The position numbers and the translations under genes are program-made. A stretch of DNA of 64,000 nt from contig NC_091944.1 of NCBI RefSeq assembly GCF_041260155.1, positions 20,402,272 to 20,466,271 of the forward strand. Direction: 5' to 3'. The stretch is from Ptychodera flava. Taxonomy: Eukaryota > Hemichordata > Enteropneusta > Ptychoderidae. Below are positions 5,697 to 64,000 of the stretch, one piece after another (position 1 is the stretch's first letter; each line of letters opens with the position of its first letter). The notes under the pieces are model-generated. The model was given only the letters and a program-made list of their open reading frames with translations, was not told where the DNA came from and made no database searches.

Positions 5697-6027
5697 CATA
5701 GTAGAACGCGCCTAGGGGACAGATTGTTGGACTCTCAAATTTTTACAATTCTTTTCTGATCTACCACTTGTGAGGTTTATTTCAAAGCTCTTGGAGAAAG
5801 AAAAACTATCACCGTCTTAGTTTTTTTCGAAATATAATTTTTCCCCATAGAGTTAACACAAGAATGGCGGCCGTTTTGTATTCAAATATCACAAAGTGCA
5901 AGGATAATTTGTTTCGCTGGTTCTAAACTTTGCGCGGTGACCTCCGATTTTTATTGTTGATTTGCTAAGAGAGTGGTTGAAAGTTTCCTTGAGGAAAGTT
6001 TCCCTTTCGGGGCGCATACTGCATTAA
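5697..6027 (-). mobile_element. MITE family A, copy 1 (TTAA type)
   Basis: Family A is a non-autonomous element of about 350 bp present in at least six near-full or recognisable copies in this window. One terminus reads TTAAGGTAGAACGCGCCTCG and the other TTAAGGTAGTATGCGCCTCG, so the first about 20 bp form terminal inverted repeats that include the TTAA. Internal landmarks shared by copies are TGATCTACCACTTGTG, AAAGCTCTTGG, CATAGAGTTAACAC, AATGGCGGCC and ACTTTGCGCGGTGACC. This copy is in the reverse orientation and its left TTAA has decayed. No coding capacity is seen. TTAA targets suggest mobilisation by a piggyBac-like transposase; that is inference. Confidence 0.75.
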
Positions 6028-10366: not shown

Positions 10367-11780
10367 TTGTACGGGCAGAGACAGACAGACAAACTGAGGG
10401 ACTTATGTCTTCTCTCTAGGATATTATCCATATTTTTTCTATATATTTTTATCGAGTTTTGACATTTTGTTTATACCATGAACAATGCAGTGACAAAAGT
10501 AACATGTTATCATAGAACATAGAAACTAGCGTCCATGAAAATTGATAGCAAGTCTATCCACCCTACTTGATAGACTGCTTGCCTGAAAGAACGAAAAAGC
10601 TCAAATGAGTTCATGTTAGGTGCATGTTAAGATGTAAATTACCGAATGACGTCACTGTATTGCGGGTAATCTCATCACGATCACTGAACGATCCTATCGT
10701 CTTTTGTCTTGTATAGTACTGGGGATTAACCGACAGTGTCAAGTTGAATGCGCCCTCAGGCGCCGGCTTTTAATTAGCGGAAAGTGGCGATGTCGCGTTC
10801 ATTGTCGCCACTTTCTATTCCTCCGAAAAGGAGGGGCAGGGTTCGGGAATACGCAAAGGAATGTCTGGAATGCACCTATATCTCCTCACAGGTGCAATCA
10901 ACACAGTCTTTGAGTGGGTAACCTGTGAAAATTAAGTTAGTGATACCCGTGACCAATTGATTTTCACAATTAATTTTTCCGTCTACGTTCTGGAAATGAT
11001 GTACTACTGTAAAATATCAGGAACTACGTACAGGGAATTACGTCATTAACTGTTTACTTAGAATATGTTTATATTGTCATACGTCCTTTGTAAATTACTT
11101 ATTTAGTTATTGATTTATTTACCCTTATTATTTTTACTGTGGATAGAAATGTATTACGAAAGGTTAATCTTTTGATCAAGGGGGCGAAATCGACATCTTT
11201 CAAACTTGGCAGCTGTGCGATTTCTGTTTACTATGAGCAGTTTGAGTTACTGTCTTCTAAAGCAATGAAGTATGCAAATATGACATCCTGCCCATCAGGA
11301 AACAGGCACACAGAAGACACGGCACACCAATAGGCCTTACATTTCTCCATTTTTTCAGTGACTTAATGTCAGCTATAGGTTGCCTGTTGTTTGGAATGGT
11401 TCCAATTCTCAATATTTAGAACTCTGCAATGAAAGGCCCAACGCAATATCTCAATCTACACATGCAGACAAACAGTGGGCGGATGTGCTAACGTTTTCAC
11501 GATGTCTCAGTATCCATTCTCGGATTTGAATGGTTGATCATTTCTTTCGTGTGGTCTAGACCGTGATTCAGCGGAGGCGACAACTATTGAAAATATGTGA
11601 CACGGTTTGATTTTAACACAATACAACTCTGCCATAAATACACCTACATCGCCCACGGCGTTTCCTGGATCCGGTTTGGAATATATGATTAATATGGGTA
11701 TTTCTTTTAGCGTACAGTCTCTATTTTTATTCTTTTTCTTTGTGTTTTCAGATATTTAAAAAGAATGATGAATTTTCAGT
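10367..11780. other. Intergenic with a short hairpin and a CRE
   Basis: No gene was recognised. AAAGTGGCGA at 10781-10790 and TCGCCACTTT at 10805-10814 can form a stem of about 10 bp. A CRE palindrome TGACGTCA lies at 10647-10654. Confidence 0.45.
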
Positions 11781-12137
11781 TTAAGATAGTTCGCGCCTTG
11801 AAAGTGAAAGACTTAAACTTTTGTTCAAACTTTCCTTGAGTAACTTTCAACCATTCTATTTCAAAATCAAGAATAAAAATCGGGGGTCACCGTGCAAATT
11901 TTGGTACGAGGGAAACAAATAACTCAAGATTTACCGATATTTAAAATTCAAAATGGCCACCATCCCTGTGTTAACTCTATGGAGAAAAATAGAATTTTCG
12001 AATTTCTAAAAACTAAGCCCGTGAAAAGTTTTCTTCCACCAAGAGCTTTAAAATGAACCTCACAAGTGGTATATCAGAAAAGAATTGTAAAAGTTTGAAA
12101 GTCCAAATTTGTGTCCCCGAGGCGCGTTCTACCTTAA
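11781..12137 (+). mobile_element. MITE family A, copy 2, TTAA at both ends
   Basis: Forward-orientation, near-complete copy. It starts TTAAGATAGTTCGCGCC and ends GGCGCGTTCTACCTTAA, so intact TTAA tetranucleotides lie at 11781-11784 and 12134-12137. The internal landmarks of the family (CATCCCTGTGTTAACTC, CCAAGAGCTTTAAAATGAAC) are present. Confidence 0.85.
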
Positions 12138-12534
12138 GCAGAATTTCTAACCAACTATTAGGAAGATATAGGGCAGCTCGTACTCCGCTGGTGCGATGTT
12201 ATCATATGGAAAATTTAGTAGTAGTGGAGGGAATAGTTCAAGACATTCTTTCAAGACATTTAATCACCTTTTTTATCGCACAATCCATTATTCCCGCTTG
12301 AAGACCCCCCTCAACACACTCACCATACCCACACACCCCTCCACACACATACTCAAAGTCACGTTGTACCGTGATAACCAATGGATATTGCAGTTCCGTG
12401 GGTATTAGCTCAGACGGCTACATAAAAATACTAGGCCCAAATTGTTGACGTCTCTCTTTCTGCAAAACACGGAATATACACATCCCGAAGCGGAAAGCTT
12501 TAGCTAAATTCCCAATCTGTTCCCGTGAAATTTT

Positions 12535-12720: not shown

Positions 12721-13979
12721 ACTCATTCATGCGTTAAAGTAACTAAAAACTTTTTTGAGCATTTCAGAACGTATGGCTCTCTTAACGAAACGATATTCCG
12801 ATATATCCAATGTCAAGAGTATTCTTACAAAGGTAAAATACGATCAAACTGCGACAACGAACAGATCGAGAGTGGCAACTTGCCGACGTATACATTGCTG
12901 TAGGTGTACTGACGACCGCCGATATCCATACAAACTCCATGTAATAAAGATGGAGATATGTTCCTGACATTTTCTTGGAAAAATACTATAATAACAGCAA
13001 TTCTAATGAAAAGGGCCTAAAACATTGATAAGGATCGGACTGAATGTGATAGCGGCAGTAAATTCTCGAGCATCCTGAGCGGGTTCACTAGCGAAAGAAA
13101 GATCACCAGAGGGCGCCAGACACATACATGACATGATTGTACTTTTCGAGTGTCCTGACACGGGCAAGTAACAGAAATAAGCCAACATGCAAACGACATT
13201 TGGAAGCCCACTGGATTCTGGGCATATATAATAAAGCTGTCAATCTAAAGAAAAGCAACTCTTTGATTTTCACATGTTTTTAAAGAGACACATAGATAAA
13301 TAAAAAGATCAAAGGGGTCAGTGCTATATGCATGCACAGTCTGTGGCTGCGGGGACTGTGGTACATACCACGAACTCAAGAGTGTTATACTGGTGGAGTA
13401 GCTATATCTGCAAATCTCAGGTTTTTTGGGCCATTTCCCTGACTTTTTGTTCGTGTAAATGACAAAAAAATTCAGAGAGGCATTTATGTAGTGGCTCTCT
13501 CATAATTTATTTTTCATTAGAGACACGACTGGAGGTTCAAGGACCGGTACATCAGGAATTATGAAAGATGTTTACCTGTGCATGCAACCGATGTAAGAGT
13601 CCCTGCTGCAGGTCAGAATTATTTTTTTTTGTTTAAAAAAAAATTGAGCAACGCATCGGTTTTCATAGGCCCCGACTTTTAAAGCAATTCAGATTAGGCT
13701 ATACCTTAACAAATATCGGCAAATATTTAAGGCATTTACTTTGGAGAAGGGTATCAATAATGACACAAGACCGATCAGCTGATCTCAGGCTGTCCAGTAT
13801 AAGGCTTCTTTCACATAGCCATCGGAGAGTGCAGAGATGAAGAGCGCCCCCAATGGAGACTCTTTAACAGGCACCGGCTCTTTCTGAGACGATTGATAAG
13901 TAAAAACATTGTAATTTCTTTATCTTGCATATGCTGTTGGACAAAAATGGGAAGAAAGAATAATAGTGTCCCCGTCTTT
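12721..13979. other. Intergenic, no gene recognised
   Basis: No coding exon, RNA gene or clear repeat was recognised. The palindromic GTGGTACATACCAC near 13358 is the only local structure noted. Confidence 0.4.
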
Positions 13980-14549
13980 ATTTAATGAGATACATCGTTG
14001 ATAAGGTAGCCATAGACACAAACACACGTGAATTCCAGTTCAAACTTCATCATATTCTGTACACAAACTACGATCTATCTAGAAGAGGTATGGACCAATC
14101 ACTGCTCTGTTCATTCTGCCAAAACAGCAACGAGACACTTGATCATCTTTTCTACACCTGTAAATTCACTGAGACCTTCTGGAACGAGTTTCACACATTT
14201 TTCGAGAATCTCTCAGTTTGTTCACTAGACATAACTTAAATGAAGTGCTCTTTGGTGTTGAAGGTTACTCTGACATTCATAATCACTTGCTACTGTTAGC
14301 CAAAAGACACATCTATGCCATGAAAATGAAACAGAGTAAACCACATTGCAGCTTTTATGTTGCAAGTGAAATTCAACTACCATCTAGAGTACGAAATAGC
14401 TCTGGAAAAGACAAATTAGAGAGACATTGCAGCAAATGGATTTCAATTTTACAAAAAATTGTAGATAACTAAGCACTGTACTTCATTTTAATTTAAGTTA
14501 CTGTTACTAAAGAAAATGTTACCAATAAAACAACTTAAATACAAAAAAA
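13980..14549 (+). mobile_element. L1-like LINE, 5'-truncated 3' end
   Basis: The translation carries the C-terminal zinc-binding tail typical of L1/Tx1-type reverse transcriptase proteins: a Cys-x2-Cys pair (LLCSFCQNSNETLDHLFYTC) followed by ETFWNEF, in the usual spacing C-x2-C-x7-H-x4-C. A second segment in another frame (14218-14472) continues with NEVLFGVEG and ends WISILQKIVDN-stop, so the copy carries a frameshift near 14235. An A-rich tail at about 14525-14549 follows the stop. The upstream reverse transcriptase and endonuclease are absent, so this is a dead 5'-truncated insertion of about 570 bp. Confidence 0.75.
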
Positions 14550-19761: not shown

Positions 19762-19949
19762 TTAAGGTATACAGTCACCTGTAATCTAAATATGGCCATA
19801 TATGGTCAAAAGGGCATTCCTTGGTATTAAAAATGCCATGTGAGGCGCTGTTCTTAAAAAGCGGCCACCCACTTAAAATCTGATTGATTAGATTTTCTCT
19901 TTCCACGTTAACTGTGGCAAAATTGGAACAGGTGACAGTATACCTTCAA
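19762..19949 (+). mobile_element. MITE family C, copy 1 (about 187 bp)
   Basis: The ends AAGGTATACAGTCACCTGT and ACAGGTGACAGTATACCTT are inverted copies of each other with a single mismatch over 19 bp. A second copy lies at 29184-29374. The left flank carries TTAA; the right flank is altered. The interior includes GGGCATTCCTTGGTATT and a GGCGCTGTT motif. Confidence 0.8.
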
Positions 19950-21244: not shown

Positions 21245-24200
21245 TTACGTCACAGCTGCCAACTTCTCCACCAAATGATCTTTCTTGTTGACTTTCTTCA
21301 TCTGTGAAAGATTAAACAGACGTGTATTCACAATGCAAAGAACATCTCACAACTCTGAACACACGCTTTTGGAACTTTGATAAGTATTTGATGAATGGTA
21401 GGTGCTCACAGACAATTGTTTCAATCACGAAAACTTTGAATAAAATTAAAAAGTGAGTGTAGTTGTTACATACCTCTTCTTCATTAAGTGTATCACCCTT
21501 CTTCTGTTTTTCTTGTAAAATAACAATCTAATTTCCAGATGTAAAAAAAACATTAGTTTCTAAGTGAAAGAAGATGACATTTTCAACCTATTCACATTAA
21601 ACAAAACATATAAGATGCAAAGTCTATCAATATATTCATTTTTCATATGGCTGTGACAGCTTGGTGCATTTTTGAATAGCAATGCTCTACAGATGAATTC
21701 TTGTAATTTAAAATATTTGTTCACAAACACAGCAATTCTGTGAGGAGGATGGTGAAGTCAAAGCTTTCCAAAAAGTTTTAATCTTTATTTTACTTGTGTA
21801 GACATACAAAAATCCATAGGTATATCATTTTCCTTACTTCAAACATGGCAAAGCTACATAAGAAAAGTGTTACAAAATTTGAGTAGAGTATCATTTGCCA
21901 CAGAAGTTCAGGACAAGTGCTACACTATATTATTCACACCATAAATCCTGCTGGTTGCTACATAGCCTTCTTCAGGGTAGCATTTACAATGTATGATAGA
22001 GATTAAATGCTCTGAATGTGAAATATTGGCATACAGGTATACTCTCTTAGTTAAGGTAGAATTTGCCTTGGGGACAGATATTCCAACTCTCAAACTTTAA
22101 CAATACATGTTTGATCTATCACTTGTGGGGGCTCATTTCAAAGCTCATGGAGTGAATAAAGTTTTCAGTGGCTTACTTTGTGAAAATCTAAAATTGAATT
22201 CAACATCATGCATGTGCACTTTTAACCCTTTCACCACCATGGTTTTACCCAAACCCTTGTTATCAATGGTGATCTTGGACCTGTTTACAGGGAATTGGGG
22301 TGAACAGATTAAACAAATGCATAGACTGCTTAAGAAAGGTGCAACCATGCATACAACATGGCAAAGATACATTTGAAATATTTCAACATGGGTCTCACAG
22401 TACCGACTGATATTTTTATTACTGAAAGGATGTTAGAGGAGTAAGGAAGCTTGAGTAGCCCTTGGAGATAACTCAGTTGCTCCTTGAGACTGGCTGAAGA
22501 CGTAGTACTGTGTAAATGGTGTCAAGGTAACAAACAAAGGCACATGTCACTTGCATACATACAATAAACAAGAAACACTCACCTCTCTGAGTTTCTTGTT
22601 CAGCTTACGGATTTTCTTCTTTTTCTTGGCTTCAATGGTTTCCTATAAGATGATAAAATACACATAAAATTTAGACTAAGCATTGCCTCTGGCATGAAAA
22701 AATAAAAAAAATAAACTTGCAACAACTGGCTAAAATTTTAATGGACAACCAGAAAAATTATGTACTGTCTCAAGTCGGAAAATTGAATTTGTCAAGAAAT
22801 GCCTGGTAGACTGATGAAACCTTAGCGAGTACAATGGAAGCACAATAATCTAACATCCTTCTACCGGTATGCATCTTGTGGAAGATAGCTTAATTGGTTC
22901 AAGGGTAGAATTTATGTGATTGCTATTTTGTGTGTTTTTTTAATGATAATTTGCTTGACAACAACATTTTCCACATTCAAATTACAGCCTAACAATTCAA
23001 ATTTTTACTTGGTTTCAAACTTTACAGATGACACTAGCTTTTCAGCCCTGTGCATACACTTCAAGGAGATTACTACTCAGAGGGACAGTTGAACCTATGG
23101 TGCCTGGCTGAATTGAAAGAACCTTTATACTCAGTCCTTGCTGATAATGAATATTCATGGAGTAATGGATGGGTGGTGCGATACATTTGACGAGACCTTG
23201 AATATTAATCACAGTCCTGCATGTAGCTTGAGAACTGCAAAAGAATGCAACTGTGGAACTTGTGTTTTGTCTAAATGTTCCCTTATACATGTATATACAT
23301 ACAAACTTTTACATAGACTTAATCTAAAACATCAGTATACCTGTGTTTGGTCGGTAGCTGAGGAAGCCTTAGCATCTGATACAACACCTGTAAGAGACAT
23401 GGATTAGATGAAATGATCGAATGGGAGGACAGTTGCTTCTCAAAAGACCTATAAGGGTGTCCAATTTTTATGAAATGAAGATATGTACAGCATAAATATC
23501 CATTGGCAAATCAGTTTGTTTTCATAACAGTAAGAAATACTATGACAGATGCCACTGGCTAATATATAGTATTGTTGACAAAGTCATTGAACAATGAGCC
23601 AATTCTGTGTCTGCCACCTACTATATAAGCATGCTTGGGATTCAAAGTGCATGGACACTGAAATTGTGGACTGTAATGTCTTTGTTTTGTAAAACCAGCA
23701 TGGCAACCTTTCTTTGGAAACTCATTTTGTAATTTGTGCTGCTATTACTGGCATATACATTATTATTATTATTCAGCTATTTACTAAATCTAAAGATAAT
23801 GCTGAACCATTTAGGCAAATTATTAGCACTACTAGTGAAAACTGATGTCATTGATGATATTTCAAGAACGGAGAAGGCTTCCTTGACTGGAGAGATATGT
23901 GAATATGATTCAATTGCTATTACACAACTAAGTGGCAATATAATCACATTGTCACTACTCGCTATCCCACTGAATATCAATTTGTCAAACCTGGAGGAAG
24001 AGGAGGATTGTTCTCCGTGGATGCAGCATTTCCAGAGGGAGTTTTACTGTCATTTCTTGCTTGGGAAAACAACACAGAGTTGTCCCCATTCTCCGAGGGT
24101 AAGGCACTTTCTTTCATGGCTTCAGCAAGAGATGGCCATTCTGGATGACCGTTCCCATCCATGGCCGCTTTCTTGCGCTGTGGACCCTGGCTGTCGTTCA

Positions 24201-29183: not shown

Positions 29184-29374
29184 TTAAAGGTATACAGTCA
29201 CCTGTAATCTAAATATGCCCATATATAGCCAAAGGGGCATTCCTTGGTATTCTAAATGCCCATGTGAGGGCGCTGTTTTTAAAAAGTGGCCACTCGCTTA
29301 AAATTTGTGATTGGTTAGATTTTTTTTCCATGGTAACTGTGGCAAAATTGGAATAGGTGACAGTATACCATTAA
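29184..29374 (+). mobile_element. MITE family C, copy 2, TTAA at both ends
   Basis: TTAA at 29184-29187 and 29371-29374 flank GGTATACAGTCACCTGT and its inverted partner AGGTGACAGTATACC. The interior aligns throughout with the copy at 19762-19949. Confidence 0.8.
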
Positions 29375-41700: not shown

Positions 41701-43779
41701 CAACTTCTGCATATTGTGTCTGTCAGGTGCTTTTGCCAGAGAGAGTGTCCGTGCTACCGTGAAGTATGCAAATAGTTCTCAAAGGAAGAAAATACAGAGT
41801 ATAGGAAAGCAACATGGTTGTCACAGTTGTGGAAGATGGTTGAAGGTGAAGTTTTACATAGCTGATCACCAACCACACACCATAGCTGTAAGTATTCAAT
41901 TTATAAACTGCAAGTGATCCTGTAATTATGCCAAACATTTGATAAACAAAAAAACTAAATGGTTAGAAGTCTATGTGATATATTCTTTAATCTTTTCACC
42001 ATCATGGTACAGTCCAAATCCATATTATCAATGGGCAGGGTGGACCTGTTAAGGTAGTATGCGCCTCAACAGTGAAAGCCCTAAACTGTTGCTCAAGCTG
42101 TCCTCAAAGAGTATTTCAACCACTCTCTTTCAAAATTAAGAATGAAAAATCGGGGTTCACTGCGCAAATTTTGGAACTAGAGAAACAAATTACCAAAGAT
42201 TTACTGATATTTGAAATTCAAAATGACTGCCATCCCTATATTAAATATATTGAGGGAAGAAATATTTCAATTTTTGAAAAACTAAGGTGATGAAAAGTTT
42301 TCTTACACCAAGAGCTTTAAAATGAACCCCCACTAGAGGTAGATCAGAAAAGAATTGTCAAAGTTTGAGAGCATCAGCAGTGAATGGCTGCTCCTGAGGC
42401 ACATTCTGCACAATGTGGGAAAAATTCTGATGCCCATCACAGGATTATGGCCGTACTGTACTGCAGTAAAAATTTTACAGGACTCACATGTGTAATGAAC
42501 CAAGATAAACAAATATTTGTATGATTCATTGTCAAATTTATGCCAAAATGACTTTTTGCATTGACCTGAACCTCGGTTTGTATTGTTTTCAGTTAGTTTG
42601 TTTCTTTGTCTGTTAGGGCATATACCAGTGGAAGCATCGAATCGTGTGCTGTTCATGCCATATAGATATCACTGACTTGATGGCAAATCAATAATTCTTT
42701 CGAAAGTAATTCTTAAACTTAAAGAGCATTGTCTAACATTTCTAATACATCATATGTAAATGCCATCAATCAATATGTACATTATCGGTGAACTGTGTTT
42801 AACTTTGAAAAACTGAATGGTGTTCAAGTCGCAACCCAGTAAGACCGTCAGGCTGAATTTGAGTGAATGAATTCCAAGATTTTCAATGGTGACATTTTAG
42901 GGAGTACACAAGGAGCATGGCACTTTGCTGTGCTGTAGGCAAGCTACTGGTTACATGAGAGTTAAGAACGTGTGTGTTAGATTCACTAAGTCAGTGGAAT
43001 GCTAACTTACCAGAAAAACCATCAGATTTGTATTTATTTTGGGAGATTTTGTGCATAGCTGTAATGTCAAATGTTTACTCTTACACCACAAAAGAGATTT
43101 TAAAAAGATGTAACAAAAAGACATAACTTTCATGTAAGAAAACTCTTTTTATAACCTCATTCCATGTTTCAAGTACTGCTTAAAGGGAAACGGTAGTCGG
43201 AATTGCGCCTGTTTGAGTTTGTGTTTACAAACAATGTATTTCGTGCACAACTTTCATCAATTACCATCGTACCTTGGATACAGGATGCATTGGTCGTATG
43301 TGTCCCATACAACCTTTTTAGCGCAGTTCCGATAACTGAATCCCTTTAAAATGGCATCAGAATTTTTCCCATACTGTGTTGCAAGTAAACTTTTTAAGAA
43401 ACGTGAACAAAAGTATTGCACGACGCAGTGTTGATTATCGTTTCTTTTTTTCCCTAAGAAAATTACATTGTTGTGAAATGAAACACAATAATGAAACATA
43501 TCAATTCTTTTCACCTTTCTGTTTGTTCAAATCTTTTGATCCATCCAGGTTGTGTTGCAGAATTCCAAAGCCAACAGGAAACCTCTTCAGGATCAGAGAT
43601 TTTACCCACAATGCACCAAGTGTGCCAAGAAGCAGAGACACTGCGTCAGCAAACCAGCTGTGAGGAAATTGGTGACGCACGCAACATCGCTGAGAAGATA
43701 TCATTTCTTTCTTCCACTTCCCTTGCTCCTACCACCATCAACTTTACAGCTTGTCATGGACCTTTTGAAACCAAGGTGA
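38743..43779 (+). CDS. Membrane-anchored protein with Cys/His treble-clef-like domain
   Basis: Four exons: 38743-39010, 40836-40987, 41727-41887 and 43549-43779, giving about 270 residues. Exon 1 has two hydrophobic segments (about residues 12-37 and 46-75), suggesting a membrane anchor with the C-terminal domain facing one side. Exon 3 encodes VRATVKYANSSQRKKIQ followed by GCHSCG and IADHQP. Exon 4 adds RFYPQCTKCAKKQ. The order C-x2-C, D-H-x-P, C-x2-C-x2-KQ looks like a zinc-binding treble clef of the HNH type, but I do not recognise the family and claim no nuclease activity. Exon 2 is 152 nt where the phases on both sides require 153; reading NGQFK after the TTTT run restores a continuous conserved block (VLPSDLVKPGAFARESV). 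The first intron holds a LINE fragment and the second an inverted-repeat element. Confidence 0.65.
39137..40323 (-). mobile_element. CR1/Jockey-group LINE, 5'-truncated 3' end
   Basis: The minus strand encodes the C-terminal part of a non-LTR reverse transcriptase: NIKKTKVIVLNKS, YCYLGFVITPNGKF, IVPIMTYGCEIWGHE and VGELGRYPIHF are typical of the thumb and post-RT region of CR1/L2/Jockey-type elements. The open frame runs 40293-39574. The 3' end is a short tandem tail, read as about four TTTAC units on the plus strand at 39143-39164, as in L2-like elements. The palm motif is missing, so the copy is 5'-truncated and dead. It lies in antisense in intron 1 of the surrounding gene. Confidence 0.85.
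41014..41107. mobile_element. 94-bp inverted-repeat MITE
   Basis: Left TTGCCTGAGTATAAGCCC and right GGGGCTTATACTCAGACAA are inverted copies, with outer ACCG / CGGT also matching. The element starts 26 bp after the exon 2 donor of the host gene. No clear target duplication was seen. Confidence 0.7.
41990..42052 (+). mobile_element. MITE family B, copy 3, partial
   Basis: CTTTTCACCATCATGG, then CCATATTATCAATGGGC and GGACCTGTTAA match family B. Its final TTAA at 42049-42052 is also the first TTAA of the family A copy that follows. Confidence 0.65.
42049..42410 (+). mobile_element. MITE family A, copy 5
   Basis: Starts TTAAGGTAGTATGCGCCTC and carries the internal landmarks CAAGAGCTTTAAAATGAAC and GGTAGATCAGAAAAG. 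The right terminus (CCTGAGGCACATTCTGC) has decayed. It is in intron 3 of the membrane-anchored protein gene. Confidence 0.8.
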
Positions 43780-47638: not shown

Positions 47639-50200
47639 ATGAGCAGCCTCCAAGAAGGCACGACATTCATTTTCACTGAAGCTGGCGTCATGAAGGGTGA
47701 CTCGCCAAACATGAGGCGAAAAGACGAAAACAAAGTGAAGGTAAGCTGGTAGTTTCTCGGTGCCGTGTATGGTACAGTTTGTGTCCGAAGGTCACTTCAC
47801 TATGGTTTCGAGAAAATTCTATGCAAGTCGTAACATTTCAGCAAAATAATATCTGTTTCCGGTCCACAATGACTTGTAGTTGCATCTTCCTCCGAAGTTT
47901 TCCGATTTTACAGCGAAACAGTGAGTCAGTAGTCGTCATGCAGCGTCAAAATTCCGTACCCGTAGCGATTGCGAAATCGATGGTTCGCCATCTTTGTTTA
48001 CAATCAAAAATTGTGCTCGAGGTCGTTGACACTGCATTGTTCTATGCGATTCTGTGTATCAACAAGGAAGTTGTACTGTAACCAACGCGCAGGCAGGTTT
48101 CGCAAGGGCCTTCTGTATTCAAAGTATATTTCTCGCCACGTTATTTTGATCATGTTTAACTGTTCGTAGATTATTCTTTATCGTTTTCATGAAATTTTAC
48201 AAATAATTTTAATTAAAGTGGTTCCCCATGGAATCCGAATCTGGTTGAACTCAGAGCAAGTTCCTGGTTTCTGAACTGAAAGTGACACAGGTGACAACGG
48301 CAAGCCTGAATGTACAGAGCAATCACTACAAACAAACATAATGCCTTGGTCGTCCTTGCGAACAGGGTACATGGTATTTTTCATGCATACCACAAACACC
48401 TGTTCTTATAGCGCTGATCGCAAATGACGTCACTGTTCTCTTCATTAATATGCACTAAATAAACATTTGTCCGCATTTTCCGCATAAAAGACGAAAATAA
48501 AACCTGCGAGTGTTAGAATGGCTATTTAGCGTCACACTTATTCGTATGCATTGATGACTGAGACTTTACAAGCTGCAATAACAGCCGCGCATACAACGAC
48601 AAAATTTGTCTGAATTTCAGCATATTTGTGTGAAAGTCGTGCGCGTGCAGCTATATTTAGTAACAAACCTGAAATCGCAATCAACGCTATTGCTTTTGCG
48701 GCAACATTCAAAATTTTTCACAATGTTCATGTTTCTTTAACCAAACCCTGTACCAAGGCAAGCAAATCCCCACTCTCCTAACCCTAACCCTAAGATTAAA
48801 GATACTTCATGCAAGTGTCACTGTACACCAAAATATAAAAAAGTTACATTATTATAACACTGCTTGCTGATATTTGTAGCTACTAGAGTTTTTTATATGG
48901 AACACTAAATTTCTTGTACAGAGAGTCTCCAGCAAGGCAAAGAAGCCAGGTACAGGCAGGAGAGGGAGAAAGCCATCAAAGATAGATCAGAAAGCCAAAC
49001 TTGAAAGAAGTCGACAGAGTGCAAGAGAGTGTCGGGCTAGAAAGAAACTCAGATACCAGAACCTGGAAAAAATGGTTGGACAGAGAGAGAGAGAAATCAG
49101 CAAGCTCAGAGAGGAATTGGAAACAGTAAGTTTGTATTCTGCCAATGACTCTTTTTGAGGTGGTATGCGCCTCGAAAGTGAAAGACTGACACTTTTGCTC
49201 AAATTTTCCTTAATGAATCTTCCAACCACTCTCTTTCAAAGTCAAGAATAAAAATTGGGTTTCACTGTGCAAATTTTTGGTACTAGAGAAACAAAATACC
49301 CAGGATTAACTATATTCAAATTCAAAATGCCGCCGCCCCTGTGTTAACTCTACGGAGAAAAATAAAATTTTCGAATTTCGAAAAACTACGTCAGTGAAAA
49401 ATTTTCTTACACAAAGAGCTTTAAAATGAACCCCCATAAGTGGTAGATCAGAAAAGAATTGTAAAAGTTTGAGAGTCAGAATATCTGTCCCCGAGGCATG
49501 TTCAACGTTTACATCAGTTGACTAATGTTGCATGCATAATAGGGTAGTCTGGAGTTGAAGGTAGGGGTTAAGTATGTGTAGCATGAACATTTTGGCAAAT
49601 AGAAGACAGTGTTTTTGCCTAGGTTTTAGAACATTGGTGAATCACACTGGAACTACAGTAACATTTCTGCAGCCCTCAATTGTCACTGATAGACCAAGGC
49701 GAAACCCTGTAAAATAACTTTGAAACCCCGGTAAAATTTATCTGCTTACACCCTTAACAGAAACACTGAGAAGATGTCGCGAAAGTCTAAGAAGTTAAAG
49801 TTAGGCTGTTATCTAATGTATAAGTACATTATCATACAAATGTTTTGGCCTTCAATCAAAGTCTTATATGTTACATAAGACATGAAGGATGTATTCAAGC
49901 AGTTTTCTAAAACAAACTGTACAGAATATATCCAAAGGAAAAGGGCATACTGTATATCGTTTTAATCAATATGATAGGAGATTATATAAATTGGTTTGCC
50001 TCAATTTTCATTAGAAATATCGCATAATAGGTGCTATTGCTGAATATTTTGTAAAAACGACTACCATCATTTCTTTTCCACAGTACAAAAAGTGGTGTCA
50101 GTTGATAGATGAAGGGATTCTACCACCGGAAATAAAGAACATACTCAGACTGGCAGCAGCCACTGGGCGGGCACGGAAACAAGCATCTGTCAACTTGTGA
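47639..50200 (+). CDS. CREBL2: CREB-like bZIP transcription factor CREBL2
   Basis: Three exons, 47639-47740, 48922-49125 and 50084-50200, all in phase 0, give 140 residues. Exon 2 carries the CREBL2 signature: GRRGRKPSKIDQKAKLERSR followed by QSARECRARKKLRYQNLE (basic region), then a short leucine zipper (REREISKLREELE). Exon 3 continues YKKWCQLIDEGILPPEIKN, matching the conserved tail after the zipper in vertebrate CREBL2 and fly REPTOR-BP. The family works as a nuclear metabolic or stress regulator partnered with CREB-type or REPTOR factors. The N-terminal 34 residues from exon 1 are longer than the human start, and the C-terminus is shorter, ending ARKQASVNL. All phases agree, with no frameshift. 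A CRE palindrome lies in intron 1 and a family A MITE in intron 2. Confidence 0.95.
48425..48432. promoter_or_regulatory. CRE palindrome in CREBL2 intron 1
   Basis: A perfect TGACGTCA about 690 bp after the exon 1 donor. A CREB-related gene carrying a CRE in its first intron would be compatible with autoregulation; this is inference from the motif alone. Confidence 0.3.
49155..49511 (+). mobile_element. MITE family A, copy 6
   Basis: Near-complete forward copy in CREBL2 intron 2, starting 29 bp after the exon 2 donor. It opens TTGAGGTGGTATGCGCCTCG and closes CCCCGAGGCATGTTC. Both TTAA tetranucleotides have decayed. Confidence 0.85.
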
Positions 50201-53916: not shown

Positions 53917-54266
53917 CTAAGGTACAATGCGCCTCGGGGGCAGATAGACTCTTAAATTTCAATTCTTTTCTGATCTACCACTCATGGGAGCTCATTTTAA
54001 AGCTCTTGGAGAAAGAAAAACTCTGCCTAAGTTTTTCGAAAATCCAAAATTTAATTTTCCCATAGAGTTAAAACAGAAATGGCTGCCATTTTGAATTTCA
54101 AATATCACAAAATGTTGGATAATTTGTTTCGCTAGTTCCGAACTTTACACGGTGACCCCCCCCCCCCCCCAATTTTTTATTGTTGATTTGGTAAGAGAAT
54201 GGTTGAAAGTTTCATTGAGGAAAGTTTGAGCAAAAGTTTAGGTCTTTCACTTTCGAGGTCCTCATG
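53917..54266 (-). mobile_element. MITE family A, copy 7
   Basis: Reverse-orientation copy starting CTAAGGTACAATGCGCCTCG and ending near CTTTCGAGGTCC. A run of C bases has expanded inside it near 54158. Confidence 0.85.
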
Positions 54267-54450: not shown

Positions 54451-54554
54451 ACGTATAATCTATTCATTTAATTCCAAGATATCAATGAAGTAACTATAGA
54501 AAATCTGAAACAATTGATGTTCTTCATCATAACTTTCTATCCGCAGTGAACAGC

Positions 54555-54910
54555 TTAAGGTCGTATGCACCTTGAAAGTGAGATTTAAACTTTTGTTCAA
54601 ACTTTCCTTAATGGCAATTTCAACCTTTCTCTTACCTAATCAACTGAGAACAAACATCAGGGTCATCGTGCAAATTTTGTACTAGAGAAACAACCTTAAT
54701 TTACCAATATTTCAAATTCAAAATGGCCGCCATCCCTGTGTTTACTCTATTGAGAAAAATTAAAATTTTTGATTTTCGAAAAAAACTAAGACTATAAAAA
54801 GTTTTCTTTCGCCGAGAGCTTTAAAATGAACCCCCACAAGTGGTAGATCAGAAGAGCATTGTGAAAGTTTGAGAGTCTGAAATCTGTCCCCGAGGCTCAT
54901 TCGACTTTAA
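54555..54910 (+). mobile_element. MITE family A, copy 9, TTAA at both ends
   Basis: A 356-bp forward copy with TTAA at 54555-54558 and 54907-54910. It opens TTAAGGTCGTATGCACC and closes GGCTCATTCGACTTTAA. Confidence 0.85.
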
Positions 54911-55182
54911 GGTGAAACTCTATAGATTTACATACTTATCAATATGACATGGTTTAAACAGCTAAGACACAATAAAGAAACAGACCTGTCAAGCACGGTA
55001 GTGATCTGTGCAATTGATATTGATTCATTATTTAACTCTGGAAAAATACAGGTAATTTTTACGTTCTCAAAAAACCCTCAGGAATGGTATTCAAAATGGT
55101 ACATGTCCATGTGCTGTCCTTGAGATCAACAATCAGTATGTAAATTAATTTCAAAATGTCGTGATTTATGAAGTAGCTTAGG

Positions 55183-57011: not shown

Positions 57012-57970
57012 CTGACATGATTTGAGAAGAGAGGGAGGATTAAATCTCGTTTCTGACGTTTAACTCTTGCGTGTTCACTATTCCGTATATTTAGTTTCTA
57101 TCGCTTACCATCCCCGTATTTTGAATAGTATAGCCAGGCCTTTACAAATAAAACGTTTGGAACTTTCAGCTAAACCACAGAGTAACATGGACAGAGTGGC
57201 AACGCTTGCATGTCTTTTGTTCCATGGTCGTCTCGGTAGACTATTGGCTTTTCATATTAAAATGAGCTCCAAAGGTGTTAAACTTTTTGGAGGCTTTGTT
57301 TGTGGTTGATAATTACACGAGATTATGCGATTATCGTACTGCCAGTCGCGTAGCAACCATAGTTACTTTGTGAGCTCTCAGGCCAGAAACACTGCTTCAC
57401 GCCAATTAAAACATAACACGCCAGCAGTTTCATAAACATGTCCTTCCTTGACGCACGTGTAAAAGACGGTATAACTGACCGTAAACCATTGAGTAAAACC
57501 AGACAGTATCGATAAAAGACTTTCAAATTTGGTTCAAACACACTCATTATATATTCATAAAAATATGAGAGGAATTTTAAAACGGTAAAACTCACTTTCC
57601 TGAAGCTCAAAACACTCCCGTTTTCGCCAGCACGTCAATTCCGCTCAGCACCACACGACAACAACAACACAAACTTTGCCGAACATACTTTCGCTTAACA
57701 ATTGGCGAAAATCCGAAAATTACCGAAGGATGCATGGTCGGCACTCTTTGGAAAAGAGAGGCGAGAGCAACCTGAGGCGAGGCGAACATGGATGGGTTAC
57801 GTAACCGCTTCACGCCTTAAACAATACCCGTTGCCACTCTGTATCGTCGTTACCATCAAAGAGTCCCTTACGCAAGCATCGATTTCTTCCTGAAAAAGTT
57901 TTGTGCTGGTGTTCTTCAGCCTGGCTTAATTGTCCGGAACTTCATGAACTCTGGCAGTATTCGTATACAC
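57012..57970. other. No exon recognised upstream of the NRF-6-like exons
   Basis: If the gene is intact this is intron sequence. Short open frames occur on both strands near 57600-57890, but none matches the NRF family. Confidence 0.4.
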
Positions 57971-58060
57971 CACAGGCGCCCGTGGGCTGGGTAGCCTGCT
58001 CTATCGATCGAGCAGAAAATCGATCGATCTAGCAGACTATCCAGCCCACGGGCGCCTGTG
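57971..58060. repeat. 90-bp near-perfect hairpin
   Basis: Two 40-bp arms match at about 36 positions around a 10-nt loop. The outer 20 bp (CACAGGCGCCCGTGGGCTGG at 57971-57990 and its complement at 58041-58060) are perfect. The inner part contains ATCGATCG on both sides. It is far more GC-rich than its surroundings. Confidence 0.9.
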
Positions 58061-58189
58061 ATATACACCTATGTTTGCTAGTGATAATTTTGTTACAAGT
58101 CATACTGCTACCTGATTGGAAAACATTCAGTAAAATCTTAGATGACCATCATAACCTGTTATGTATTTCTCAAGGTAAAAAGTAGTAGT

Positions 58190-61100
58190 CCGTGGGCTAG
58201 AGGGGGTCTACGTGCACCCCCCCACAGGATAACAAACCTGTATTTTTCAGAAGCCTTAGGATCCCTAGAATACGAAATGGAATTTTAACAGAAAAAATAT
58301 AGGGATGGAATAGCTGTTATGGTCATGTTTTGAAGGGTACCGCAAAATAACGATTTTCCAAGCCAAATGCATTTTCGTCAAATCTGTCTTCTTGTAAGTC
58401 ATGTGCTGAGCTCATTTTTAACATAACCTCACTTGTTTGGTATCATTAGAAAGGGAATTTATTCGTCTTTAAGATGACATATTGTACTATGCAATATCTT
58501 CTACAGTTTTTGTCAAATATAACCAAAACTTACCCCTTACCCCAAAATTTAACATTGCAAATTACAGTAAATCTCAAATTCTACCAATTTTTTAGCTAGG
58601 CATAATAAAAAATGCAATGCTTTGTCTGAAATCTGTTTTATTTCATACAGGGACATGTCAGAATTATCAAATAGACTTTTAACAGAAAAAATATTGGGAA
58701 TCTACAGCTGTAACAGTCATATTTTGAATGGTACCGCAAAATAACAGTGTTGCAGATTTGCATGCATTTTTGTTAAAACTTTCTTCTTATAAGTTATCTG
58801 CTGGGCTTGTTTTTCAGTATAACCTGGCTTGTTAGGTATCATTAGAAAGATAATTCACAATCTTCAGAATGATATATTGTAACATGCAATATCTTGCATA
58901 GTTTTCATGATATATAACCAAAACTTACCCCTTACCCAAAAGTTTACAATGAAAATTTCTGTCATAGCTAAAACCAAATTTTACAATTTTTTAGCTTGAC
59001 ACAAAATCTCTGGCCGTTTTTGCTATTAAATCTGTTTTATTTCATACAGGGACATGTCAGAATTATCAAATAGACTTTTAACAGAAAAAATATTAGGAAT
59101 CTACAGCTGTAACAGTCATATTTTGAATGGTACCGCAAAATATCAGTGTTGCAGATTTGCATGCATTTTTGTTAAAACTGTCTTCTTATAAGTTATCTGC
59201 TGAGCTTGTTTTTGAATATAACCTGGCTTGGTTGGTATCATTAGAAAGATAATTTACTAATCTTCAGAATTACATATTGTAACATGCAATATCTTGCATA
59301 GTTTTCATGATATATAACCAAAACTTACCCCTTACCCCAAAGTTTACATTGAAAATTTCTGTCATAGCTAAAACCAAATTTTACAATTTTTTTAGCTTGA
59401 CACAAAAAATCTGGCCGTTTTTGCTATTAAATCTGTTTTATTTGGTACAGGGACATGTCAGAATTATCAAATAGACTTTTAACAGAAAAAATATTGGGAA
59501 TCTACAGCTGTAACAGTCATATTTTGAATGGTACCGCAAAATCACGGTGTTGCAGATTTGCATGCATTTTGTTAAATTGTTCTTCTTATAAGTTATCTGC
59601 TGAGCTTGTTTTTGAATATAACCTGGCTTGTTAGGTATCATTAGAAAGATAATTTACTAATCTTCAGAATGACATATTGTAACATGCAATATCTTGCATA
59701 GTTTTCATGATATATAACCAAAACTTACCCCTTACCCCAAAGTTATATTGAAAATTGCAGTCAAAGCTAAAACCAAATTCTACAATTTTTTTAGCTTGAC
59801 ACAAAAACTCTGGCCGTTTTTGCTATTGAATCTGTTTTATTTTGTACAGGGACATGTCAGAAATATGAAATAGACTTTAAACAGAAAAAATATTAGGAAT
59901 CTACAGCTGTAACAGTCATATTTTGAACGGTACCGCAAAATAACAGTGTTGCAGATTTGCATGCATTTTTGTTAAATTGTTCTTCTTATACGTTATCTGC
60001 TGAGCTTGTTTTTGAATATAACCTGGCTTGTTAGGTATCATTAGAAAGATAATTCACTAATCTTCAGAATGACATATTGTAACATGCAATATCTTCTATA
60101 GTTTTCATGATATATAACCAAAACTTACCCCTTACCCCAAAGTTTACATTGAAAATTTCTGTCATAGCTAAAACCAAATTCTACAATTCTTTTAGCTTAA
60201 CACAAAAAATCTGGCCCTTTTTTGCTATTAAATCTATTTTATTTGGTAGAGGGACATGTCAGAAATATGAAATAGACCTGTAACAGAAAAAAATATTGGG
60301 AATCTACAGCTGTAACAGTCATATTTTCAAGGGTCTCGGAAAATCACAGTATTGAAAACTCGCTTGCTTTTTGTTAAATCTGTCTTCCTATAAGTCATCT
60401 GCTGAGCTTGATTTTTGACATAACCTGGCTTCTTAGGTATCAATAGAAAGGTAATTTACTGGTCTTTAAAATGACATATTGTAATATGCAATGTCTTGTT
60501 TAGGTTTCATGAAATAGGACCAAAGCTTACCCCATACCCCAAGGTTTACACAGCAAATTACTGCAAATCTGAAACTCGATCTTTTTTTACAATTTATTAA
60601 CTTTATATACAAAAGGCAATGCTTGTATGCAATCTACGGAATCTGTGTTTTTTTTAGAAAAGTATGTTACAAATATGAAATTAACTTTTAACAGGAACAT
60701 AATATGATTTTGTAGCCTTTTGGATCATATTTGGAAGGGTACCCAGGTATCAGGGCAAATTTGCCGAAACACATACATTTGCAATATTTGGGTTCCCCCT
60801 CCAAAAATGATCCAAGTGGCTACTAAATTGTATCATCTTCCCGTTAAAAGGTAATTTGATACTTGTAACATACTTTTGTAACAAATAAATCAGATTTTAA
60901 ATAAGAATTGCCTTTTGTATTATGTGCAGCAAAAAATGGTAGAATTTGTGATAAGCTGTAATTTGCGATTTGAACTTTTTGGTATGGGGTAAAGTTTGAC
61001 CATATTCCAGGAAAACTATGGATGACATTGTATATTACAATATGTCATCTTAAAGAAGAATAAATTTCCCTACTAATGATACCTCACAAGCCAGGTTGTG

Positions 61101-64000
61101 TCACAAAATAAGTTCAGCAGATGACTTACAAGAAGAAGAATTTAACAAAAAAGGTGCCAGTTTGCGGTACTGCGATTTTGCATTTCTCTTCAAAATATGG
61201 CTGATACAACTAAACAGTCCAAATATTTTTTCTGTTAAAAGTCTATTTCACATTTCTAACATGACCCAGTACCATATACAACAGATTTAATACCGAAACA
61301 GAACTATTTTTATCATGTCTAGCTAAAAATTCACGGAAATTGATCACGTTATCTATGACAGTACTTCCAATATAAACCTTGGGGTATGGGGTACGTTTTG
61401 GTCATATTCCATGAAAACTATACAAGATATTGCCTGTTACAATATTTCATTGTAAATACCAGTTAATTACCTTTCCAATGATACTAAACAAACCCGGCTA
61501 TAATCAATAACAAGCTCAGTAGACTACTTATAAGATGACAGATTTAACAAAAACGCATACGAATCAGGAATACTGAGATTTTGCTGTACCCTTAAAAATA
61601 CAGCTCTTACAGCTATAGAATCCCAATACTTTTTCTGTTAAAAGTTCATTTCATATTTCTGATATGGCCAAGTACAAAATTAAACAGATTTCATACAAAA
61701 AATTGCCTAATTTTTTATGTCTGCGTAAAAAAATTGCTTGAATTTGATATTAGCTATGACAGTAGTTTTCGATGTAAATTTTGAGGTATGGGGTAAGTTT
61801 TGGTCATATTTCATAAAAATCTGTACAAGATATTGCATGTTACAATATGTCTTTTTAAAGACTAGTAAATAATCTTACTAATGATACCTAACAACTTACA
61901 TTATATTCTATAAGAAGCTCAGCAGATGACTTACAAGACGATAGATTCAACAAAAATGCACGCAAGTCAGGAATACTGAGATTTTGCTGTACCCTTCAAA
62001 ATCTGACTGTTACAACTACAGAATTCCAATCTTTTTTCTGTTAAAAGTCTATTTCATATTTCTGACATGTCCCTGTACCAAATAAAATAGATTTAAGGTA
62101 AAGGGCGACGAATTCGGACGCGCACACGCTTTAGAACGTTTCTGCGCAGATTTAACTCCAGCCTGCCGCAAATGGGCTATTTTGTAGCGCATGTATTTAA
62201 CATCACCTGTCATTGTTGAAATTGCGCTTTTACCTAATTTTTTGACCCAGTGTCTTGGAAATACATGTGACCTATAACCTTGTCATATTTTGACCCCCTA
62301 GGAAGCTGGTTTTTATTCAATATGAGCGAAAATTAACATTTCTCTCCCATTTATATGGCGCAAATAACCCATCACCTGGAGATATTGTAAAAAGTAGCGT
62401 GGTGACACCCTTTTATTAAAAGTGTAAACTAAATGGTATTATGTCAGGAGTTTATTCGCCAAGTTTGGTCAAAATGACACCATTCAAAGCGACAGGAAGA
62501 AAGTTCGAAAATTATGTAGTGATATAATTTCGATATCGTCATTTTGTAATCGATACTTATGTTAAAATTTCTTCACAAACATCATGAAAATATACATTCG
62601 ATAGATATTGATCTTAAGTCTTGGTATTTATTAAAATTAACTCATTTGCTAAGCGTTTTATAATTGCTTTCTTTAGTTTAAGTGAATTATATCATTTTTA
62701 TTTATTTCTAACGACGCCATTTTAACGTCCGTTTCCATGGAAACAAGCGTGGTGACCCCCATTTTTTATTTCATTTTGCACTTGCACAACTTCCAAGAAT
62801 ATTTGTGCAAAGTTTCAAGAAAATGACACCACAACTTAATTTTGACGTAATTCGTAGTACTTCACCTTAATAGCAAAAACGGCCAGATATTTTGTTTCTA
62901 GCTAAAAAATTTGTAGAATTTGGTTTTAGCTATGACTGAAATTTTCAATGTAAACTTTGGGGTAAGGGGTAAGTTTTGGTTATATATCATGAAAACTATA
63001 GAAGATATTGCATGTTACAATATGTCATTCTAAAGATTAGTGAATTATCTTTCTAATGATACCTAACAAGCCAGGTTATATTGAAAAACAAGCCCAGCAG
63101 ATAACTTATAAGAAGAAAGTTTTAACAAAAATGCATGCAAATCTGCAACACCGTGATTTTGCGGTACCATTCAAAATATGACTGTTACAGCTGTAGATTC
63201 CTAATATTTTTTCTGTTTAAAGTCTATTTCATATTTCTGACATGTCCCTGTACCAAATAAAACAGATTTAATAGCAAAAACGGCCAGAGATTTTGTGTCA
63301 AGCTAAAAAAATTGTAAAATTTGGTTTTAGCTATGACAGAAATTTTCATTGTAAACTTTGGGGTAAGGGGTAAGTTTTGGTTACATATCATGAAAACTAT
63401 AGAAGATATTGCATGTTACAATATGTCATTCTGAAGATTAGTGAATTATCTTTCTAATGATACCTAACAAGCCAGGTTATATTGAAAAACAAGCTCAGCA
63501 GATAACTTATAGGAAGACAGTTTTAACAAAAATGCATGCAAATCTGCAACACTGTTATTTTGCGGTACCCTTCAAAATATGACTGTTACAGCTGTAGATT
63601 CCCAATATTTTTTCTGTTAAAAGTCTATTTGATAATTCTGACATGTCCCTGTATCAAATAAAACAGATTTCAGACAAAGCATTGCATTTTTTATTATGCC
63701 TAGCTAAAAAATTGGTAGAATTTGAGATTTACTGTAATTTGCAATGTTAAATTTTGGGGTAAGGGGTAAGTTTTGGTTATATTTGACAAAAACTGTAGAA
63801 GATATTGCATGTTACAATATGTCATCTTAAAGAGGAATAAATTCCCTTTCTAATGATACCAAACAAGTGAGGTTATGTTAAAAAATGAGCTCAGCACATG
63901 ACTTACAAGAAGACAGATTTGACGAAAATGCATTTGGCTTGGAAAATCGTGATTTTGCGGTACCCTTCAAAACATGACCATAACAGCTATTCCATCCCTA
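58190..64000. mobile_element. Giant foldback array of 400-bp tandem units, right end outside window
   Basis: The left arm contains about six tandem units of 398-409 bp, marked by GGGACATGTCAGAA at 58650, 59049, 59450, 59849 and 60251. Near 60766 the orientation flips. The right arm repeats the same units in reverse complement, at about 61258, 61664, 62068, 63243 and 63644. The last bases of the window (rc TAGGGATGGAATAGCTG) match 58304 onward, so the array continues about 100 bp past the end. Outermost units are nearly identical between arms, while central units are visibly diverged. No coding capacity is seen. The form resembles Drosophila FB/Galileo foldback elements, but no terminus or transposase supports a superfamily. 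Confidence 0.9.
62097..62866. mobile_element. 770-bp TTAA insertion inside the foldback array (family D)
   Basis: TTAA at 62093-62096 and 62867-62870 flank a unique 770-bp segment. Its ends GGTAAAGGGCGACGAATT and (reverse complement) GGTGAAGTACTACGAATT are inverted copies at about 14 of 18 positions. The neighbouring repeat unit near 63265 shows the unoccupied site, CAGATTTAATAGCAAAAACG, with a single TTAA. No open frame of note lies inside, so this is a non-autonomous element. Confidence 0.9.

Follow-up and report, generated by a model that had tools for sequence, protein, structure and literature searches.

A 64,000-bp stretch of the Ptychodera flava genome (contig NC_091944.1 of assembly GCF_041260155.1, positions 20,402,272 to 20,466,271; hereafter the window) ends in a large palindrome, spanning 58,276-64,000 in window coordinates, whose two arms consist of tandem units of about 400 bp, six of them and part of a seventh per arm. 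This array is probably, though by no means securely, a non-autonomous foldback-type transposable element, or the remnant of one, similar to Tetris and Galileo, with gene conversion between the arms in the outer ~1.2 kb. As part of the same interpretation, and with the same modest confidence, the arms would be long terminal inverted repeats, both built from the ~400-bp units in tandem, and hardly any middle would lie between them. The interpretation rests on the mirrored tandem array with its common centre and the equal number of units seen in each arm, and on the layering of the arms, in which the outer ~1.2 kb is alike between the arms, the inner units have drifted, and a middle class of unit extends across both arms. 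Long inverted repeats that contain tandem subrepeats, a feature of foldback elements, are present. The anatomy of the array is ordinary in itself, and the point of interest is the gradient of arm-to-arm identity, which is highest at the outside.

The arrangement was established by two routes. Tandem Repeats Finder reported arrays at 58275-60550, 60981-62096 and 62867-63978, with periods of 400, 403 and 401 bp, and BLASTN matched 58300-59430 to 64000-62867 in inverted orientation at 96.3% identity (E-value 0) and 59427-62096 to its own reverse complement at 78.0% (E-value 0). Both results bear out the first-pass annotation of this sequence, which had described head-to-head arms of about six tandem units; its proposed centre at 60766 was close, the arms being found to meet near 60760. 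The borders of the units, which are numbered inward from the outer ends as L1-L7 and R1-R7 (Table 1), were set by the conserved start motif of the unit. Repeat homology begins at 58267-58276, and the sequence 58180-58280, used as a query, matched only itself within the window. The left arm measures ~2.49 kb, and the right arm would be of the same length once extended to its expected outer edge and relieved of an insert described below. Because base 64000 pairs with 58300, R1 is cut ~24 bp short of that edge, and the right outer end lies beyond position 64000, so that the right terminus and any target-site duplication fall outside the analysed sequence. Across the arms the sequence is 69% AT, that is, 31% G+C. 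On the left, the stretch 58187-58230, which lies between the array and ordinary DNA, is far richer in G+C than the arms (66% against 31%) and contains runs of C and of G; it could be the site of the true left end. Just left of the array, a 106-bp segment (57963-58068) is 79% identical to its own reverse complement.

Pairwise identity computed over the 12 units divides them into three groups. L1 and R1 are 98.6% alike, and each is 72-79% like the remaining ten units. The middle class comprises L2, L3, L4, L5, R2 and R3, with mutual identities of 93.2-96.5%, and its mean identity is 95.06% between arms (8 pairs) compared with 94.67% within arms (7 pairs). The other four units, L6, R4, R5 and R6, are old and stand alone, with 68-76% mutual identity and at most 82% identity to any unit. 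The equal likeness of middle units between and within arms, together with the near-identity of the outermost pair, supports the earlier proposal that the outer units have been homogenised. In addition, a 6-bp piece is missing alike from L6, R6, L1 and R1. The middle class extends two units further inward in the left arm than in the right, which suggests that its replacement of older units took place in the left arm; conversion in place and expansion would both fit, and the equal unit number per arm mildly favours conversion. Six representative units were used for the tests of variability, of a conserved core and of shared states, and among these the 3' part of the unit is over-variable (P = 0.0016).

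The Kimura two-parameter (K80) distance between facing units increases from the outside inward in the order 0.014, 0.036, 0.060, 0.211, 0.279 and 0.327, and identity correlates with distance from the outer end at a Spearman coefficient of -0.87 (n = 49 windows of 50 columns). A single step fits best at 59491, where identity falls from 96.5% on the outer side to 77.0% on the inner, and the slopes within the outer and inner halves are weak (per-site Spearman -0.09 and -0.08, P 0.001 and 0.007, with sites taken as independent). The gradient noticed in the first-pass annotation is therefore real, but its shape is a gentle slope, a sharp step and a second gentle slope. Similarly, the statement that identity is lowest at the centre holds for the last 22 columns, which barely align (score 0.27, with gaps in 12 columns), but not for 60640-60739, where identity recovers to 0.81 from 0.69 in the preceding segment. 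A mirrored assembly artefact had been named at the outset as a finding that would overturn the palindrome, and the window does stop inside the right arm, with the sequence beyond it unseen. Such an artefact, be it a read or a join of contigs that is mirrored or chimeric, is nevertheless highly improbable: a mirror image should be near-identical throughout, whereas 5 of 370 sites differ between the arms even in the outermost and best unit pair, 103 of 389 differ in the worst, and a 770-bp insert is present in one arm only.

At the centre, L7 and R7 break off at about the same point of the unit, and the sequence running into the centre is common to both. L6 and R6 have six states exclusive to them, the highest number among the 15 pairs of representatives, and when the unit positions were relabelled to see how often facing units match as well as in the true order, 7 of the 720 labellings of all six positions did so, the true one included. 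The common truncation, the common central sequence and the states of L6 and R6 therefore favour one inverted duplication rather than two independent arrays. The 12-bp perfect palindrome near the meeting point is the sole one of such length in the arms; the insert holds one more, and there are 93 in the whole window. The junction also bears on the idea that two Helentron-type or other array-carrying elements lie head to head. Oyster elements of this type do carry short satellite-like arrays (PMC7492417; this and the other published comparisons draw on portions of the reports cited), but in these the array has a different flanking module on each side, whereas here a truncated unit is common to both arms with no module between them; judged by the junction, such a pairing is very unlikely.

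Based on the results presented above, a course of events may be proposed for a foldback-type element. A single inverted duplication would have given rise to the mirrored array, after which gene conversion within and between the arms may have kept the outer part alike. By analogy, the outermost unit (L1/R1) may bear the end that is cut by a transposase supplied by another element, and the inner units could provide extra transposase binding sites. If breaks at the ends were mended from the opposite arm, conversion would enter from the outside and fade inward. That the gradient is a record of such end-driven repair, in which the ends stay matched over ~1.2 kb while the interior decays, is a speculative suggestion that we regard as rather doubtful. 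Pairing that starts from the hairpin centre would conserve the centre best, and the reverse is seen over most of the length, the recovery at 60640-60739 aside.

The array has no apparent protein-coding or RNA function, as the first-pass annotation had stated for the former. The longest of the 21 stop-to-stop frames of at least 50 amino acids that overlap 58190-64000 has 78 amino acids, and a Pfam scan of nine of these 21 frames gave a single match at chance level (E 0.092, 13.5 bits against a cut-off of 27). Unit lengths are mostly not divisible by three. Searches of the whole window found no Rfam match and no tRNA, and the predicted fold of L3, the one unit folded, is no better than that of shuffled sequences (z -1.34; 11 of 100 shuffles equalled or exceeded its stability). 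A coding or structured-RNA unit is thus not supported.

Several observations weigh against the foldback interpretation. In the remainder of the window (1-58250), no clear second copy was found: a profile search for relatives of the unit gave no matches, and blastn gave 16 weak, short matches only (22-70 bp; the best, of 45 bp, with E 0.003). Six exact-pattern scans, four of viral contigs and two of contigs from prokaryote genomes, were also empty, which carries little weight in collections that are not animal. No transposase appeared in a Pfam scan of 17 frames, which took in a minority of the 48 frames of at least 90 amino acids in the window. With the right terminus and target-site duplication out of view, membership among foldback elements is assigned by anatomy and stays provisional. 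The least variable 40-column window of the six representatives is not significant as a conserved core (P = 0.17), and the unit therefore lends no support to a binding site. In addition, the evidence for a single duplication is slim in places, since L1/R6 share five exclusive states and L1/R4 four, and without the outermost pair the relabelling is weak, with 7 of 120 labellings as good. Tree support inside the middle class is low (15-57%), too low to give a direction of copying. At positions 4 and 5, middle-class units on the left face old units on the right; some of the gradient is therefore due to the unequal histories of the two arms and not to a smooth decay. Finally, three inner unit pairs are 18-27% divergent, whereas the two arms of a Galileo copy are 98-100% identical in the account drawn on here (PMC3573991).

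These points lead to the main alternative, namely a local, satellite-like tandem array that was turned into an inverted duplication by a template switch or a hairpin-capped break, never moved as a unit, and was later partly homogenised by unequal exchange and gene conversion. As in a satellite with an inversion, tandem monomers of both orientations lie around an inversion point, and the cited part of a study of Tribolium madens describes satellite arrays that are mirror-symmetric and whose inversion sites are conserved (PMC13081366). The arms join in a common partial unit, close to which stands a short palindrome, and a fold-back template switch could produce such a junction; the deep inner divergence suggests long residence and fits such an array at least as well as a foldback element; and signs of mobility were not found within the window. 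On the other hand, the array is short (~5 kb) and lies amid dispersed repeats, with a bZIP-like frame ~9 kb off, and a private outer class at both ends is unexpected for the arbitrary edges of a satellite, although an inverted duplication reaching across the edge would have copied that class too. A local satellite palindrome is accordingly possible, but we hold it to be the less probable origin.

Table 1. Units of the palindromic array and associated features, in window coordinates.
Feature	Coordinates	Strand	Description
L1	58276..58669	+	Left arm, outermost; private class with R1 only
L2	58670..59068	+	Left arm, middle class
L3	59069..59469	+	Left arm, middle class
L4	59470..59868	+	Left arm, middle class; faces old R4 (81.7%)
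L5	59869..60270	+	Left arm, middle class; faces old R5 (76.8%)
L6	60271..60678	+	Left arm, old, diverged; end sequence in common with R6
L7	60679..60760	+	Left partial unit; unit similarity stops ~60 bp in
12-bp perfect palindrome GGCAAATTTGCC	60754..60765	.	Near the meeting point of the arms
R7	60766..60856	-	Right partial unit; cut at about the unit position of L7
R6	60857..61247	-	Right arm, old, diverged
R5	61248..61650	-	Right arm, old, diverged
R4	61651..62053	-	Right arm, old, diverged
R3	62054..63229	-	Right arm, middle class; divided in two by the 770-bp insert
Insert	62097..62866	.	770 bp; TTAA duplications at 62093-62096 and 62867-62870
R2	63230..63629	-	Right arm, middle class
R1	63630..64000	-	Right arm, outermost; window edge ~24 bp before expected outer edge

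The insert has TTAA on either side and lies inside R3, whose inner edge is ~42 bp away. The uninterrupted site AGATTTAATAGC, with a single TTAA, is visible in L2, L3 and R2, and R1 differs there. Compared as inverted repeats, the ends of the insert agree at 16 of the first 23 bases. A TTAA target duplication together with terminal inverted repeats characterises piggyBac-type elements, and the insert may be a short element of that type.

Elsewhere in the window, a Pfam scan of seven frames gave one bZIP domain, one reverse-transcriptase zinc-binding domain and five frames without a match, in keeping with nuclear DNA of an animal. The bZIP_2 match (E 4.8e-07) falls in the frame 48880-49155, presumably an exon of a CREB/ATF-like gene; a comparison of this frame with solved structures gave no matches. 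The reverse-transcriptase zinc-binding match (E 8.7e-10) at 13967-14236 is likely a fragment of a non-LTR (long terminal repeat) retrotransposon. A dispersed family of ~300-360 bp, in both orientations and ~75-85% alike, occurs at 5701-6001, 11777-12138, 42049-42371, 49155-49497, 53918-54259 and 54551-54911, with a partial copy at 22051-22195, and is perhaps a short interspersed or miniature element. A direct repeat of ~185 bp, 88.6% identical, is found at 19764-19944 and 29187-29369.

As a mobile foldback element, the array would represent a new family whose subrepeats are unusually long, and the layering of its arms would be a natural record of how inverted repeats stay alike. As a local satellite palindrome, it would be a case of such symmetry in a short, isolated array. 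Under either interpretation, a large palindromic repeat of this kind could plausibly act as a weak point in recombination and pose a hazard to assembly.

In a limited search of open-access literature, none of the titles and abstract openings among the papers listed described a structure like this array outside the elements named here. The earlier suggestion of an unknown repeat class gains no support, since published foldback elements and inverted satellites show such anatomy. The macro-dyad symmetries of Tribolium madens likewise have head-to-head subarrays and a defined inversion point, but they span a few to tens of kilobases within multi-megabase satellite regions, whereas the array here is isolated within the window and ~5 kb long (PMC13081366). 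The Mutator/foldback family Tm1 has composite inverted repeats with tandem subrepeats, and differs in its 13-15 bp subrepeats, 9-bp target-site duplications and defined terminal motifs (PMC3169594). Galileo, of the P superfamily, resembles the array in its long, internally repetitive inverted repeats, and differs in that its arms measure 0.5-1.2 kb and its transposase is known (PMC3688188, PMC3573991). Its tandem repeats hold further transposase binding sites (PMC3688188), the repeat number can differ between arms, and repair of one arm from the other has been proposed to lengthen the arms (PMC3688188, PMC3573991).

The likeness to FB and Galileo put forward in the first-pass annotation thus agrees with the anatomy, but Tetris, a foldback element of Drosophila virilis, is closer still. 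As far as the portion of its description used here goes, Tetris has inverted repeats that reach 1,735 bp and contain an outer flanking domain as well as ~220-bp tandem units, and it lacks a transposase of its own; its authors suggest that these units could supply additional binding sites for transposase, and in two of the three complete copies the repeats group by copy, which they read as possible homogenisation (PMC4079207). The units here are ~400 bp and the arms ~2.5 kb, and a middle domain and target-site duplications of 8-10 bp are found in Tetris, whereas here there is almost no middle and the termini and other copies are out of view. On the other hand, the two agree in the outer domain of their long inverted repeats, in tandem repeats that run to hundreds of bases, in the lack of any apparent coding capacity and in an AT-rich composition (~70% in Tetris, 69% in the arms here). 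The private outer class of L1 and R1 may, by analogy, parallel the flanking domain of Tetris, which is distinct from its 220-bp repeats.

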